Shown piece by piece: positions 907 to 5,746 of a stretch of 5,746 bases of DNA (the stretch's first letter is position 1; the number at the start of each line of letters is the position of its first letter). The position numbers and the translations under genes are program-made. Below the pieces are notes generated by a model that saw only the letters and a program-made list of their open reading frames with translations, was not told the origin of the DNA and ran no database searches. Origin of the DNA: Chloroflexota bacterium (lineage in GTDB: Bacteria; Chloroflexota; Dehalococcoidia; UBA3495); assembly GCA_022571575.1 (NCBI GenBank), contig JACZXN010000132.1, positions 1 to 5,746 on the forward strand, given 5' to 3'.

Positions 907-993
907 GACCCGGAGATTGGACCCGGAAATTGGACCCGGAGGACCCGGAGATTAGACCCGGAACTTAGACCCGGAAATTGGATAGGAAGTTGA
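907..993. repeat. Tandem array of 13-bp GACCCGGARATTR units
   Basis: Copies of GACCCGGA begin at 907, 920, 933, 942, 955 and 968. Spacings are 13, 13, 9, 13 and 13 bp, so the third unit has lost 4 bp. Full units read GACCCGGAGATTG, GACCCGGAAATTG, GACCCGGAGATTA, GACCCGGAACTTA and GACCCGGAAATTG. A degenerate seventh unit (981-993) contains the ribosome binding site of the downstream PAS-LuxR gene. The array fills most of the gap between the oxidoreductase and that gene. It could be an iteron-like binding site set or a slippage-expanded spacer; the sequence alone does not decide. Confidence 0.9.
984..989 (+). promoter_or_regulatory. Shine-Dalgarno AGGAAG for the PAS-LuxR gene
   Basis: AGGAAG lies 6 nt before ATG 996, so 996 is chosen over the in-frame TTG at 978, which lies inside the repeat array. 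The motif sits in the last, degenerate copy of the 13-bp repeat. Confidence 0.7.
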
Positions 994-995
994 AT

Positions 996-1694
996 ATGGA
1001 AACGATTCATCTGTTGGAAAGTATCGCCAATACGGCGGACGGGGTATTCGCGGTGGACGAAGACCAGCGGATCGTCCACTGGAACGCGGGCGCCGAGAGG
1101 ATCCTGGGATATTCGGCCAAAGATATGCTGGGCTGTTATTGTTTCGACGTTATGAACGGCGTCGATGAATCGTCCAACGCAGTTTGCTATCTGGGTTGCC
1201 CGGTCATTGATTGCGCCAAGGGGGGCTATCCCACGCCCGGCCGGGACTTGAAGGTCAAAGCCAAGGACGGCACAGGCCGGTGGTTGAGCGTGGTCCATAC
1301 CTACATCACCGGCAACAACCGGCGTCTGGCCGCGGTGGTCCACATCTTCCGGGACATCACTCAGGGAATGGAGGCCAAGCGCACGCTGGAGCGCATCTCC
1401 ATGGAGGTGTCGGCCTACGGCAGACCGGCGCCGGCCAAGGAACCGGAGACGCACCGGGACGGCGAACTGACCGAACGGGAGAAACAGGTGGCGGCCATGC
1501 TGGCCCAGGGCGAGGGGACCAGCGGCATCGCCAAGAAGTTGATGATCAGCAACGCCACCGCTCGGAACCACATCCAGAACATACTGGTCAAGTTGAACGT
1601 GCATACCCGGCTGGAGGCGGTGGCCTACGTGCTCCGGAACCGGGTGATCGACAACGAACCGGGGAATTTGATGCAGGGGCACTATGAGGAATGA
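996..1694 (+). CDS. PAS-domain LuxR-family transcriptional regulator
   Basis: The protein has 232 residues from ATG 996. A PAS fold spans roughly residues 5-125, with typical elements DGVFAVDEDQRIVHWN (15-30), ILGYSAKDMLG (36-46) and the closing HIFRDIT (116-122). A short linker (about 135-155) leads to a LuxR/GerE helix-turn-helix at about 157-218, starting LTEREKQV and including the recognition-helix region SNATARNHIQNIL (185-197). It is a one-component sensor-regulator: there is no receiver or kinase domain and no membrane segment, so it is probably cytoplasmic. The PAS domain carries five cysteines at 47, 49, 64, 68 and 73 within 27 residues, between its central helices and the following strands. 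Such clusters recur in a set of PAS-LuxR proteins and suggest a metal, Fe-S or redox ligand, but the ligand is unknown. The tandem repeats directly upstream are candidate self-regulatory binding sites. A membrane protein gene follows after 93 bp and may be co-transcribed. Confidence 0.88.
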   Translation: METIHLLESIANTADGVFAVDEDQRIVHWNAGAERILGYSAKDMLGCYCFDVMNGVDESSNAVCYLGCPVIDCAKGGYPTPGRDLKVKAKDGTGRWLSVVHTYITGNNRRLAAVVHIFRDITQGMEAKRTLERISMEVSAYGRPAPAKEPETHRDGELTEREKQVAAMLAQGEGTSGIAKKLMISNATARNHIQNILVKLNVHTRLEAVAYVLRNRVIDNEPGNLMQGHYEE

Positions 1695-2486: not shown

Positions 2487-2522
2487 ATCACCGGAGATCC
2501 AATGCAAGGGGTCTCCGGTGAT
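2487..2522. repeat. Perfect 11-bp inverted repeat in the intergenic region before the LLM gene
   Basis: ATCACCGGAGA (2487-2497) is the exact reverse complement of TCTCCGGTGAT (2512-2522). As RNA the stem continues through a U-G wobble and two C-G pairs to about 14 bp with an 8-nt loop (2501-2508). No T-run follows on either strand within a few bases, so it is not a standard intrinsic terminator. It lies 79 bp after the membrane-protein stop and 124 bp before the LLM start. An operator for a dimeric regulator or an RNA-stabilising hairpin are the likeliest readings. Confidence 0.8.
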
Positions 2523-2581
2523 GCATCTGCACTACCGCAAATAGTGCCCGTGCATCTTCCAGGCCCAGTTCGCCCTTTCTA

Positions 2582-2599
2582 TAGTGGCCTTAGTGGCCT
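2582..2599. repeat. Two tandem copies of TAGTGGCCT
   Basis: The 9-mer TAGTGGCCT occupies 2582-2590 and 2591-2599 in the leader of the LLM gene. It is a short slippage-type duplication and no function is evident. Confidence 0.7.
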
Positions 2600-2634
2600 T
2601 GTCAAACGCCATCAAGCGTTACCAACGCGTTCTC

Positions 2635-2639
2635 GGAGG
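2635..2639 (+). promoter_or_regulatory. Shine-Dalgarno GGAGG for the LLM gene
   Basis: GGAGG is 6 nt before GTG 2646. It fixes that start rather than the in-frame ATG at 2502, whose extra 48 residues do not resemble the family and which lies in the loop of the inverted repeat. Confidence 0.85.
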
Positions 2640-2645
2640 TACGAC

Positions 2646-3743
2646 GTGAAATTCGGACTGTTCTACCTGTTTAGCGACTTTGGCGACATCCCCCAAGATC
2701 AGATATTCAACGAGGTACTGGAGGAGATCGAGTACGGAGAGGAACTGGGTTTCGACTCGGTGTGGCTGCCCGAGCACCATTTCGCCGTCTATGGGATGTT
2801 GGGGAACCCGCTGACCATGGCGGCGGCCATCTCCCAGCGGACCCACCACATGAGGATCGGCACCGCAATCATGGTGCTGCCCTTCCAGCACCCGCTGCGG
2901 GTTGCCGAAGACGCGGCCCTGGTGGACGCCCTGAGCGGAGGGAGGTTGATGTTGGGAGTGGGCCGCGGATATCAGCCCCCCGAGTTCAAGGGGTTCGGCG
3001 TGACCCAGGAAGAGTCCCGGCCCATGTTCGTCGAGTCCTTCGAGATACTCCGGCGGGCCCTGAGCGGCGAGAAATTCGCCTATGAAGGTGTCTACTGGCA
3101 GATACAGGAGCCCACGGAGGTCTTCCCCAAGCCCATCCAGAAACCCTATCCACCGTTCTACATGGCGGCGATAAGCCCGGCCAGCTACGAGCTTGCGGCG
3201 AAGTTCGGCATCTCCCTGCTCCGGTCGCCCCAGTTCACCAACCTGGGCACGGTGGCGGAGGCCTTCGACGGATACCGGAAATTGATGTCGGACCAGGGGT
3301 TCGACGCCGACGCCATCGACCAGCCCTTCTCGGTCAGGACCTTTGTGGCCCCCACCGACGAGCAGGCAAAGGCCGAGACCAAGCATGTGGTGTGGTTCTA
3401 TCACCTGCTGGCCACGCTTTTGCCAGGGGCTCCCGGCCGCCCGGCCCCGGCAACGGGCTACGAAAATTATCCCCGGGACCCCAGCGTGCTGTCCAAGATC
3501 ACCGTCGAGGACGTATGGGAGCGGGGAACCGCCTTCGGGTCCCCGGAGCGGGTGATCACCCAGATGAAGCGGTACATGCATGAGGCGGGGGCGACCAGCT
3601 TCCTGAACCAGATGCGTATCGGTGGCCTGGAACACAAGAAGGTGATGCTCTCCATGGAGTTGTTCGCCAAACACGTGATGCCCGAGCTCAGGAAAGAGGA
3701 GGCCAAGATGAAGGCCGATATGAAAGTGGGCGGGGCCGCATAG
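2646..3743 (+). CDS. LLM-class flavin-dependent oxidoreductase (luciferase-like monooxygenase)
   Basis: The protein has 365 residues from GTG 2646. It starts with MKFGLFYLF, the first beta strand typical of the family. Family hallmarks are LGFDSVWLPEHHF (34-46), LTMAAAISQRT (56-66), IGTAIMVLPFQHPLRVAED (71-89) and LSGGRLMLGVGRGY (96-109). The single-domain TIM-barrel fold and the length are normal for bacterial luciferase-like (PF00296) enzymes, which use reduced FMN or F420 to oxygenate or reduce organic substrates. Substrate and cofactor cannot be read from the sequence. No flavin reductase partner is seen nearby. The last 25 residues or so are Lys/Glu/Met-rich and probably helical. The gene stands alone: it has its own ribosome site, a 237-bp upstream gap with a strong inverted repeat, and an intrinsic terminator about 50 bp after the stop. 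Such monooxygenases are greatly expanded in some Chloroflexota, which fits the proposed source. Confidence 0.92.
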   Translation: MKFGLFYLFSDFGDIPQDQIFNEVLEEIEYGEELGFDSVWLPEHHFAVYGMLGNPLTMAAAISQRTHHMRIGTAIMVLPFQHPLRVAEDAALVDALSGGRLMLGVGRGYQPPEFKGFGVTQEESRPMFVESFEILRRALSGEKFAYEGVYWQIQEPTEVFPKPIQKPYPPFYMAAISPASYELAAKFGISLLRSPQFTNLGTVAEAFDGYRKLMSDQGFDADAIDQPFSVRTFVAPTDEQAKAETKHVVWFYHLLATLLPGAPGRPAPATGYENYPRDPSVLSKITVEDVWERGTAFGSPERVITQMKRYMHEAGATSFLNQMRIGGLEHKKVMLSMELFAKHVMPELRKEEAKMKADMKVGGAA

Positions 3744-3789: not shown

Positions 3790-3822
3790 AGACCGGCAGC
3801 AACCGCTGCCGGTCTCTTCTTT
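3790..3822 (+). terminator. Intrinsic terminator of the LLM gene
   Basis: An 11-bp perfect stem AGACCGGCAGC (3790-3800) / GCTGCCGGTCT (3805-3815) with an AACC loop is followed by CTTCTTT. It lies 47 bp after the LLM stop. The U-tract is interrupted by C but is adequate for a GC-rich stem. Confidence 0.85.
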
Positions 3823-4059: not shown

Positions 4060-4251
4060 GTGGTAATCGAGAAAGACTTGGTGGAGAACGCTGCGGCCCA
4101 GGTGGGGCTCGAGGAGCAGACCGAGCCGGCCTGCCGGCACCATTGGGTCATCGAGCCGGCCAACGGCCCAGTTAGCTGGGGAGAATGTCAGATCTGCCAT
4201 GAGGGCAAGGAGTTCCAGAACTCCATCGGCGACGTCGACCGGGACTATTAG
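4060..4251 (+). CDS. Small putative zinc-binding protein (C-x2-H ... C-x2-C)
   Basis: The protein has 63 residues from GTG 4060, read by its strong ribosome site. An acidic N-terminal helix (about 3-22) precedes a conserved-looking core: CRHHW (25-29), then the GPVSWGECQIC segment (36-46) and KEFQNS (50-55). C25-x2-H28 and C43-x2-C46 make a plausible four-ligand zinc site separated by 14 residues. The W-V-I-E-P...G-P-V-S-x-G-x-C-x-x-C pattern recurs, to my recollection, in unnamed small proteins of Chloroflexota and Actinobacteria. There is no signal peptide or membrane segment, so it is probably cytoplasmic. Function is unknown; zinc fingers of this size may bind nucleic acid or protein. It lies 152 nt upstream of the tubulin-family gene on the same strand with no T-tract terminator between them, so co-transcription is plausible. 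Confidence 0.8.
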   Translation: MVIEKDLVENAAAQVGLEEQTEPACRHHWVIEPANGPVSWGECQICHEGKEFQNSIGDVDRDY

Positions 4252-4349: not shown

Positions 4350-4397
4350 ATGTGCGGTCCGGCCAGCCTCGGCTGGAGGGGCCGACACTGGAGGTAG
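4350..4397 (+). CDS. Possible 15-residue leader peptide upstream of the tubulin-family gene
   Basis: ATG 4350 opens MCGPASLGWRGRHWR, stopping at TAG 4395-4397, 6 nt before ATG 4404. A GGAGGG (4342-4347) lies just upstream, but with only about 3 nt spacing to the ATG (GGAGG core ends 4346), which is short. The stop codon overlaps the end of the GGAGGT ribosome site (4390-4395) of the tubulin-family gene, an arrangement that would allow translational coupling. The peptide contains a small hairpin in its coding sequence. It resembles no known peptide and could be chance. Confidence 0.22.
   Translation: MCGPASLGWRGRHWR
4390..4394 (+). promoter_or_regulatory. Shine-Dalgarno GGAGG for the tubulin-family gene
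   Basis: GGAGG lies 9 nt before ATG 4404 and supports that start, which also matches the usual N-terminus of the family. Confidence 0.85.
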
Positions 4398-4403
4398 GGA
4401 AAG

Positions 4404-5525
4404 ATGAGAGTACTTTGGATCGGTTTCGGACAGGCAGGGGGCAAGATAGCCAATTCTCTGATGGGAATGAACCGCCGCCTCTACAGCGCCATCGCCATCA
4501 ACACCGAAGAGGCCGACCTTTCCGGCTTGCCAAACGTCCGGGACAAGATCCTGATCGGGAAATACGTCCTCCGGGGACGGGGCGTTGGTTCGGACATCGA
4601 CCTGGGAGCCAGCATCGCCGAAAAGTCACTGGCCCAGATGATGGACACCATCGACGCCAAAGTCAGGAAACACGACCCCGAAGTATTCTGGATCGCGGCG
4701 GGCCTGGGCGGGGGAACGGGGGCCGGGGGCAGCTTCGTCCTGGCCAACGAGCTCAAGAAGGTCTACAAGAATATCCCGGTCTACGGCATCGGCGTGGTGC
4801 CCTCGGTGACCGGAATGCCCAACGATAAAGAGGCGCTCAACCTCTCCAACACCGTCAAGGCCTTCGAGCTTTGGAACCACTACTTCAACAACATCCTGTT
4901 GGTGGACAATCAGCAGTACGAGCGGCCCAACGTGACCCGGGAGTCGGTGGAGCAGATGTTCCAACGGGTCAACGAGAAGTTGGCCCAGACTCTCACCACC
5001 ATCATCAACGCGGGGGAGATACGTCCTCCGCCCCAGGAAGTGTTCAGCTCGTCGGAGATCAAAGCCACCCTGGGCCTCATCGGCGACGTCTCGACCATCG
5101 GCTACTGCGCCGAGGAGATCAAGATAAAGTCCCAGTTCTGGCGCAGTGGAATGGACCCTGGCACCCATGAACTGGAGAGCATCATCGAAAGAAGCGTCAG
5201 TAGGAGTTCCCTCACCTTCCCGGCGGACGTGTCGGGGGCCCGGGCGGCATCGCTCATCGTCCACGGCAGGCCGGAGCATCTGTTCACCCAGGCGATTGCG
5301 GTGGGCAGGGCCAGGCTGGAGGAGCTGACCACGGTGGGCAAGGTGCGCTACGGCGACTACCCTGACCGCCGGACCAAGTATCTGTCGGCGATCACCATCG
5401 TTTCCGGCATCACCGACTTCACCCGCATGGACCAGATGCGGAAGCGGGTGCAGGAACTGAACGGCGCCGCGCCGTCGAACCGCCATACCGTAACCGACAG
5501 CGTGGTGGAGCCTTCGGTGATCTAG
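4404..5525 (+). CDS. CetZ-like tubulin/FtsZ-superfamily GTPase
   Basis: The protein has 373 residues from ATG 4404. The nucleotide-binding domain covers about 1-200. Visible elements are GFGQAGGKIA (7-16, T1 loop), AINTEEADLSGL (31-42), LRGRGVGSDIDLG (56-68, T3 region), and GLGGGTGAGG (100-109), the tubulin/FtsZ signature loop T4. The YGIGVVPS strand follows (127-134). The T7 region VFSSSEIKATLG (213-224) leads to a C-terminal domain ending near 350, then a polar tail ending VVEPSVI. The wording of these motifs, including the VSTIGYCAEE block (229-238), resembles archaeal CetZ more than cell-division FtsZ (no NVDFAD-type T7 loop). By count Glu218 falls at the same residue number as the T7 glutamate E218 mutated to disrupt GTPase function in Haloferax CetZ1, as I recall that work. 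Such proteins form GTP-dependent filaments; in archaea CetZ governs cell shape and motility. It is cytoplasmic, with no membrane segment. The gene follows a small zinc-ribbon-like gene and a structured leader, and ends in its own terminator. Superfamily is near certain; CetZ affinity is by eye. Confidence 0.9.
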   Translation: MRVLWIGFGQAGGKIANSLMGMNRRLYSAIAINTEEADLSGLPNVRDKILIGKYVLRGRGVGSDIDLGASIAEKSLAQMMDTIDAKVRKHDPEVFWIAAGLGGGTGAGGSFVLANELKKVYKNIPVYGIGVVPSVTGMPNDKEALNLSNTVKAFELWNHYFNNILLVDNQQYERPNVTRESVEQMFQRVNEKLAQTLTTIINAGEIRPPPQEVFSSSEIKATLGLIGDVSTIGYCAEEIKIKSQFWRSGMDPGTHELESIIERSVSRSSLTFPADVSGARAASLIVHGRPEHLFTQAIAVGRARLEELTTVGKVRYGDYPDRRTKYLSAITIVSGITDFTRMDQMRKRVQELNGAAPSNRHTVTDSVVEPSVI

Positions 5526-5551: not shown

Positions 5552-5592
5552 AAAGACCGGCGGATGCAAATTCCCGCCGGTCTTTGTTTTTT
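5552..5592 (+). terminator. Strong intrinsic terminator of the tubulin-family gene
   Basis: A perfect 12-bp stem AAAGACCGGCGG (5552-5563) / CCGCCGGTCTTT (5574-5585) with a 10-nt loop is followed by GTTTTTT. It lies 26 bp after the stop and between convergent genes. The minus-strand tail is only CTTTCC, so it mainly serves the plus strand. Confidence 0.93.
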
Positions 5593-5618
5593 CAATGGCC
5601 GCGGTTGCCCGGACGGCG

Positions 5619-5746
5619 CTATAGGATTGCCACGGGGTTGACCGGGGAGCCGGTGCCGCCCACCACCCGCAGGGGGTTGACGGTGAGCAGGAACTCGTAG
5701 CGGCCCTCTTCGGCGCAGGCCTCGGCCAGGGGCTCCAAAAGTGCGT
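5619..5746 (-). CDS. Cyclase-family (kynurenine formamidase-like) hydrolase, C-terminal 41 residues
   Basis: On the minus strand a frame enters from the right edge (first full codon 5744-5742) and stops at TAG (5621-5619). The 41 residues include EGRYEFLLTVNPLRVVGGTGSPVNPVAIL in two blocks: the FLLTVNPLRVVGGTG stretch and the SPVNP-hydrophobic C-terminus. This ending is characteristic of PF04199 cyclase-family metal hydrolases, related to kynurenine formamidase. The catalytic N-terminal part with its HxGTHxDxP-type metal site lies outside the window, so activity cannot be judged. It is convergent with the tubulin-family gene and is separated from it by the terminator, so there is no operon link. 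Confidence 0.85.
   Translation of the reverse strand, partial: ALLEPLAEACAEEGRYEFLLTVNPLRVVGGTGSPVNPVAIL

Follow-up and report, generated by a model that had tools for sequence, protein, structure and literature searches.

The window, by which we mean the whole stretch of DNA analysed here, is 5746 bases long with a GC content of 0.62. Its genes and the signals discussed below are as follows.

3-863: flavocytochrome/SQR-like partial gene, from a domain scan.
978..1694, plus strand: regulator with PAS and LuxR-type HTH domains, from domain scans.
2502..3743, plus strand: luciferase-like monooxygenase, counted from the first ATG; the domain begins near residue 50, and the true start may be further in.
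4060..4251, plus strand: small gene upstream of cetZ, coding for 63 aa from a GTG start, with a zinc-ribbon-like C-x-HHW ... C-x2-C arrangement; it stops 152 bases before cetZ.
4390..4394, plus strand: Shine-Dalgarno sequence GGAGG, 9 bases 5' of the cetZ ATG.
4404..5525, plus strand: cetZ, an intact 373-aa ORF with an ATG start, coding for a CetZ-family tubulin homologue.
4701..4730, plus strand: T4 loop GLGGGTGAGG, cetZ residues 100-109, the GTP-binding signature.
5055..5057, plus strand: Glu218 codon, aligned to the Haloferax CetZ1 Glu218 column.
5554..5594, plus strand: terminator-like hairpin 3' of cetZ with a 10-bp stem, a 10-base loop and a T-rich tail, read by eye.
5619..5746, minus strand: terminal (3') part of a putative-cyclase gene convergent with cetZ; the window end truncates it.

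The hairpin 3' of cetZ, with its 10-base loop, is absent from the list of our hairpin scan, which covered loops of 3-8 bases only. Another terminator-like hairpin, with 11 pairs (3790-3815), lies 3' of the luciferase-like monooxygenase gene and parts that gene from the small gene and cetZ. The GGAGG sequence stands at about the same place in 10 of the 11 other cetZ loci described below, L008 being the deviating one (12 upstream stretches compared).

An earlier note on this DNA had proposed a CetZ-like tubulin homologue and named five sequence blocks (GFGQAGGKIA, AINTEEADL, GRGVGSDIDLG, GLGGGTGAGG and VSTIGYCAEE), all of which are present in the cetZ translation. The proposal is backed by the domain scores, the PDB search and the tree split given below. 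In a Pfam scan, the product matched CetZ_C (PF21011) with an E value of 6e-27 (94.6 bits against a cut-off of 21.6) and Tubulin (PF00091) with 2e-22; FtsZ_C (PF12327) was absent in the same scan, and Tubulin_2 (PF13809) stayed below its cut-off (21.3 vs 27 bits). The top chains in the PDB search were Haloferax CetZ1 (4b46, E 6.5e-53) and CetZ2 (4b45, E 2.4e-37), whereas the top FtsZ reached only 7.9e-10, and the predicted fold likewise appears closest to the solved structures of these two proteins. In the alignment, the window CetZ carries the GTP-binding signature and the Glu218-type position; Glu218 of Haloferax CetZ1 is said to have been assigned a catalytic role by Duggin in 2015. The dN/dS ratio of cetZ against nine full-length relatives was about 0.08-0.17 (dN 0.05-0.21, dS 0.32-1.37), indicating purifying selection and that cetZ is a working gene and no chance ORF. 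Sequence, predicted fold and phylogeny together establish that the window gene, from a SAR202-type Chloroflexota bacterium, encodes a true CetZ.

Given that this family has been called archaea-specific (PMC11621097), archaeal DNA might have been misassembled or misbinned into a bacterial contig. However, a genome-contig scan recovered close cetZ relatives at 11 loci with 73-90% identity, all of them in Chloroflexi, SAR202 or Dehalococcoidia records of separate assemblies; this number is a lower bound, as the scan used exact 8-residue patterns on 31 candidate stretches, and locus L011 ends at its contig border. The same convergent gene lies downstream of cetZ in the window and in L001-L007 (7 of the 11 loci), the fragment at 5619-5746 holding the final 41 residues with 2 differences from the PF04199 gene of L001. 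Furthermore, GC3 of cetZ (0.845) is near that of four neighbours (0.73-0.83). The bacterial loci, the common downstream gene and the similar GC3 thus indicate that cetZ is resident bacterial DNA. The bacterial neighbourhood reported in the earlier note was also found as described, with the LuxR-type regulator at 978-1694 and GGAGG before cetZ. This regulator has a whole-length relative upstream in L006 and L007 (73-76% identity), and in L001, L002 and L008 just matches of ~60 residues (33-34% identity). In a protein search, 1725 of 7997 scored candidates matched; the best 120 of these start with the window protein and continue from 90% to about 53% identity, where the organism-named relatives of at least ~53% are Chloroflexi or Dehalococcoidia, and the final nine of the 120 lie at 34-37%, the named ones being haloarchaeal. 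An archaeal or chimeric contig is rejected by the separate assemblies, synteny, GC3, bacterial neighbours and the protein's own clade, and its probability is negligible.

The small gene at 4060-4251 is an element beyond those named by the earlier note. It is the immediate same-strand upstream neighbour of cetZ in all 11 relatives, 139-232 bases off, and the genes farther upstream differ between cetZ loci. The conserved core of its product, C-x-HHW-[VI]-IE ... GP-x-S-x-G-x-C-Q-x-C ... F-x-NSI, resembles a zinc ribbon as judged from the sequence, and the Pfam scan gave no family for it. Matches to the small gene occurred in 23 of 38 genomes searched; by coordinates, the top copy adjoins cetZ in each of the 11 close hosts, and weaker copies lie elsewhere, also in genomes without this cetZ. 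One to six matches were seen per SAR202 genome searched, with weaker relatives in transpeptidase-bearing Dehalococcoidia. In L051, a more distant locus of the window's CetZ group (group A, see below), the small gene was absent within 1500 bases. The constant neighbourhood hints that the small protein may be a partner or regulator of CetZ. It could also be taken to mean that the two proteins form a scaffold for enzymes or surface assembly with no role in shape, since the small gene is the sole upstream neighbour constant in the window and all 11 loci, and Brown and Duggin reached a similar idea from archaeal cetZ neighbours (PMC9856176). We consider such a scaffold quite improbable: no upstream enzyme gene common to all loci was found, L051 does without the small gene at that distance, and genes akin to the small one are also present away from cetZ in these genomes, and in other genomes.

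We inferred a tree of 71 hand-picked rows (LG+C20+F+G4), of which 17 rows (9 in group B) were taken as bacterial by assumption, and a check tree of 55 rows consisting of the same set minus those 17 rows, plus Haloferax CetZ1. Neither tree contains fragments or the majority of the 240 match rows, and the archaeal rows comprised 7-9 haloarchaeal-type and 3 TACK rows, with methanogens, Archaeoglobus and Thermococcus absent. CetZ rows split from 8 FtsZ rows at 100/100 in both the 71-row tree (63 CetZ rows) and the 55-row tree (47 CetZ rows), placing the window protein outside canonical FtsZ, the point on which the earlier note had wanted a phylogeny. Note that the window CetZ also scored 72.2 bits with the NCBIfam ftsZ equivalog, below the required 295.2 bits; a canonical FtsZ is ruled out by this score and the tree splits.

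Within CetZ, the 71-row tree placed the window protein in group A (18 rows, 100/100), which joined 9 haloarchaeal-type rows (99/98). Twenty rows made up group B, which joined three TACK-archaeal rows at 88/89, and groups C (11 rows) and D (2 rows) stood together outside A and B; the group C hosts are, we assume, Dehalococcoides, Dehalogenimonas and kin. In the 55-row tree, group A had 12 rows at 100/100, and the supports were 99/97 for A plus 8 haloarchaeal rows, 86/87 for B plus TACK and 61/96 for C, with a warning of long branches converging on the FtsZ root. The group A stem is long (1.4-1.6 changes per column). A single bacterial CetZ clade was rejected with p-AU of 6.8e-05 in the 71-row set and 0.0019 without the 17 rows, as were groups A and B as one clade (p-AU 0.0047). 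The Glu218 column is E in all 18 group A rows and all 9 haloarchaeal-type rows, and D in 19 of 20 group B, 3 of 3 TACK-archaeal and 13 of 13 group C/D rows. The trees thus support several clades of bacterial CetZs, two of them with different archaeal neighbours. With their thin archaeal sampling, they suggest that the group A lineage came into bacteria from an archaeal source, the haloarchaeal CetZ branch or its vicinity being the likeliest one, and support an entry separate from that of the other Dehalococcoidia CetZ types.

Some further CetZ loci may be recorded here. Group D represents a second, longer CetZ-like protein of 419-425 aa in SAR202 (L027:444-1703 and L029:1474-2751, in genomes G007 and G009) and sits on a long branch of its own, close to the Dehalococcoides type. 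Group B proteins (L042, L044 and L046-L050) pair with CetZ of Hecatellales, Geothermarchaeales and Conexivisphaerales archaea, and their hosts are dispersed across the wall-less clade described below. A tandem pair of CetZ genes (L061:5038-7422) adjoins a glyceraldehyde-3-phosphate dehydrogenase gene, and a gene for this enzyme also adjoins cetZ in the Dehalococcoides genome G109 (L158).

The earlier note had also asked whether the genome has a separate canonical ftsZ. Tubulin-domain matches numbered two to four in each of the 11 host genomes of the relatives' loci (best E 1.7e-48 to 2.8e-50), and a canonical FtsZ separate from CetZ was present in all 11. FtsZ_C was found in 40 of 40 CetZ-bearing genomes (the 11 included), in 17 of 20 transpeptidase-bearing genomes and in 17 of 20 with neither. 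The FtsZ of one relative (G001) ends in a DVPSFLR-type C-terminal tail, and the window CetZ is without such a tail. In the one SAR202 division cluster that we read (G010), the order was rsmH (MraW)-ftsA-ftsZ-nrdR with no cetZ, and no mur genes were seen among the genes scanned around ftsZ. As the earlier note had stated for the window, there was no ftsA, sepF or cell-wall gene among the six ORFs scanned there. A second FtsZ_C gene occurs in some SAR202 genomes (L023, L024 and L025 in G006, G008 and G004, respectively); L023 and L025 branch away from the common FtsZ in trees, and L024 is a fragment.

Many archaea use both FtsZ1 and FtsZ2, and on that model CetZ could be a second division tubulin, septation in wall-less bacteria without FtsI and FtsW needing two tubulins. 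The retention of FtsZ in all 40 CetZ-bearing genomes would allow the two to act jointly. However, FtsZ alone seems to be enough where transpeptidase and CetZ are both missing (17 of 20 such genomes have FtsZ_C), a second FtsZ is already present in three of the 11 genomes, and division genes and cetZ were apart both in the window and in the SAR202 ftsA-ftsZ cluster. A division role for CetZ is therefore unlikely in our judgement.

We then consider the spread of CetZ in relation to the cell wall. Among 393 Dehalococcoidia genomes, 105 had CetZ_C above its cut-off, with one to five copies each, as did 22 of 301 genomes of a phylum-wide Chloroflexota draw, all 22 being also in the class draw. Group A is rare: 2 of the 393 class genomes encoded a protein 50% or more identical to that of the window. 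Note that the group C protein of G109 is identical to a Dehalococcoides mccartyi protein named FtsZ at NCBI and Tubulin-like protein CetZ at UniRef. In a first set of 80 genomes, the penicillin-binding transpeptidase domain PF00905 was found in 0 of 42 CetZ-bearing and 20 of 38 other genomes. Class-wide, it was found in 1 of 105 CetZ-bearing vs 168 of 288 other genomes (Fisher p 3e-30, kinship ignored), so that CetZ only was seen in 104 genomes, transpeptidase only in 168, both in one (G240) and neither in 120. True MreB, defined as a match with E below 1e-100, was found in 0 of 40 CetZ-bearing, 18 of 20 transpeptidase-bearing and 0 of 20 genomes with neither; weaker MreB matches are probably mostly DnaK or FtsA, judging by length, and two (L151 and L156) were checked as FtsA. 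The sets of 80 genomes were picked by CetZ and transpeptidase state and are non-random. Four CetZ genomes consisting of a single contig about as long as the genome (G186, G060, G109 and G135) had no transpeptidase match, indicating that incompleteness does not explain its absence.

We mapped these distributions onto an rpoB phylogeny with 84 rows (70 genomes from the class and 14 from other Chloroflexota, frames chosen by profile), which lacks 10 of the 80 class genomes, namely 6 without an rpoB match plus G016, G020, G056 and G334. The earliest branches are 14 transpeptidase-bearing rows, in sets of 3 and 11. One 56-row clade (93/85) takes in every one of the 37 CetZ-bearing rows and also holds 16 rows with neither and three transpeptidase-bearing rows (G402, G026 and G046). 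The changes needed on this tree were 6 for CetZ, 5 for transpeptidase and 2 for MreB. With kinship corrected, 6 independent pairs remained and the sign test was not significant (median p 0.5 for transpeptidase, 1 for MreB). In effect there was about one wall loss, with CetZ restricted to its far side and patchy there. Furthermore, the 120 of 393 genomes without transpeptidase and without CetZ indicate that wall loss does not require CetZ.

Four genomes depart from the general pattern. G240 (C2:1538-2551 and C49:77004-78086), the sole genome of the class in which CetZ and a transpeptidase match coincide, has no true MreB and a TAG stop inside one CetZ frame, and misbinning is possible. The transpeptidase matches of G026, G402 and G046 within the otherwise wall-less clade may reflect contamination or regain; of the three, only G046 has true MreB, which lies on the transpeptidase contig.

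Transfer of the archaellum to Dehalococcoidia has been published (PMC12488501), and we compared CetZ with archaellin (PF01917). Among CetZ hosts, archaellin was matched in 7 of 12 with group A, 2 of 10 with group B and 2 of 18 with group C; the figures were 6 of 20 for transpeptidase-bearing genomes and 3 of 20 for those with neither. Group A hosts thus compare with 13 of 68 for the rest (Fisher p 0.008). In 6 kin-corrected pairs, CetZ of any type and archaellin changed the same way in 2.5 and the opposite way in 0.1 on average (median p 0.5). A broken archaellin match lies ~12 kb from the longer CetZ-like gene in G009, and an archaellin match lies ~16 kb from a CetZ-like gene of the 419-425-aa type length in G010. 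The word CetZ has zero occurrences in the main text of PMC12488501.

The enrichment in group A hosts, the direction of the pairs and the published archaellum transfer, together with the help that Haloferax CetZ1 gives in positioning motility proteins, are what one would expect if CetZ places an archaellum acquired from archaea, perhaps having arrived with it. This is doubtful, however, because archaellin went unmatched in 5 of the 12 hosts of group A CetZ and in 24 of the 28 hosts of other CetZ types, it occurs without CetZ in 6 of 20 genomes that bear a transpeptidase, and the pairs test is not significant. As the sole explanation, an archaellum accessory is rejected by the 5 group A hosts without an archaellin match; motility may be one use of CetZ and is hardly the only one.

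Our preferred reading is that the archaea-derived CetZ would form a GTP-dependent filament at the membrane, with a part in cell shape and perhaps motility, to which we give a probability of roughly 55%, the role being drawn by analogy with Haloferax. From the conserved residues and fold, GTP would be bound between CetZ subunits, the protein would polymerise into protofilaments along the cytoplasmic face of the membrane, and GTP would be hydrolysed by way of Glu218. Since the hosts' kin are without peptidoglycan transpeptidase and MreB and retain FtsZ for division, CetZ would serve shape, as a cytoskeleton beneath the S-layer that tunes rod, disc and coccoid forms, if the Haloferax analogy holds. 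It perhaps also positions surface machines like Haloferax CetZ1, with the small zinc-ribbon-like product as a conceivable partner or regulator. According to PMC11621097, Haloferax CetZ1 is needed for rod development and swimming, and cells vary from disc to rod. SAR202 isolates occur as short rods, cocci and discs (PMC10444878); like Dehalococcoides, they carry an S-layer-like coat and are devoid of murein genes. PMC11994032 gives SAR202 as having ftsZ and ftsA with no ftsW or ftsI.

We tentatively extend this reading to the history of the group, at somewhat less than even odds. A common ancestor of Dehalococcoidales and SAR202 would have lost peptidoglycan and MreB, and its descendants would have repeatedly taken up archaeal CetZ and rebuilt a shape cytoskeleton (rod, disc or coccoid) as haloarchaea have it, leaving division to FtsZ and shape to CetZ. 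If wall-less bacteria do use FtsZ and CetZ in this manner, the control of shape by tubulins extends across the domain border, and a shape tubulin accompanies the loss of wall and MreB, which would help explain the disc and rod forms of Dehalococcoides and SAR202 without murein. Cultures of SAR202 and Dehalococcoides exist, so that the shape idea is testable now.

CetZ is termed archaea-specific in PMC9856176 as well as PMC11621097. However, the bare presence of CetZ in bacteria is already known, since PMC9871819 mentions CetZ-like proteins of Dehalococcoidia in one sentence, giving in its accessible text the bacterial group without a count, a wall link or FtsZ context. The bacterial CetZ member suggested by the earlier note is thus upheld by 11 bacterial loci, its bare presence having been in print. 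In our searches of the open-licence literature, we did not find CetZ together with SAR202, nor a CetZ count, the differing archaeal affinities, the confinement to the wall-less, MreB-less clade or the small upstream gene.

Among known systems, TubZ and the phage and plasmid tubulins seem less similar to the window CetZ. Matches to it numbered 0 among 50,697 phage records and 15 among plasmid records, all haloarchaeal, and a phage or plasmid tubulin is rejected on these counts. The canonical FtsZ of the relatives' genomes has the fold and GTP site in common with the window CetZ, which differs in its C-terminal domain, its locus, its 100/100 split in the trees and the lack of an FtsZ tail peptide. 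The CetZ-like proteins of Dehalococcoidia mentioned in PMC9871819 share bacterial class and family with it, whereas the Dehalococcoides type (group C) branches separately and has Asp in place of Glu218. Compared with Haloferax volcanii CetZ1 and CetZ2 (4b46 and 4b45), the window CetZ is 32-35% identical and is shorter after the VSTIGY block, where CetZ1 carries a long loop. Unlike Haloferax CetZ, it belongs to a bacterial host type without transpeptidase or MreB and stands in its own long-stem clade, with the small zinc-ribbon-like gene upstream.
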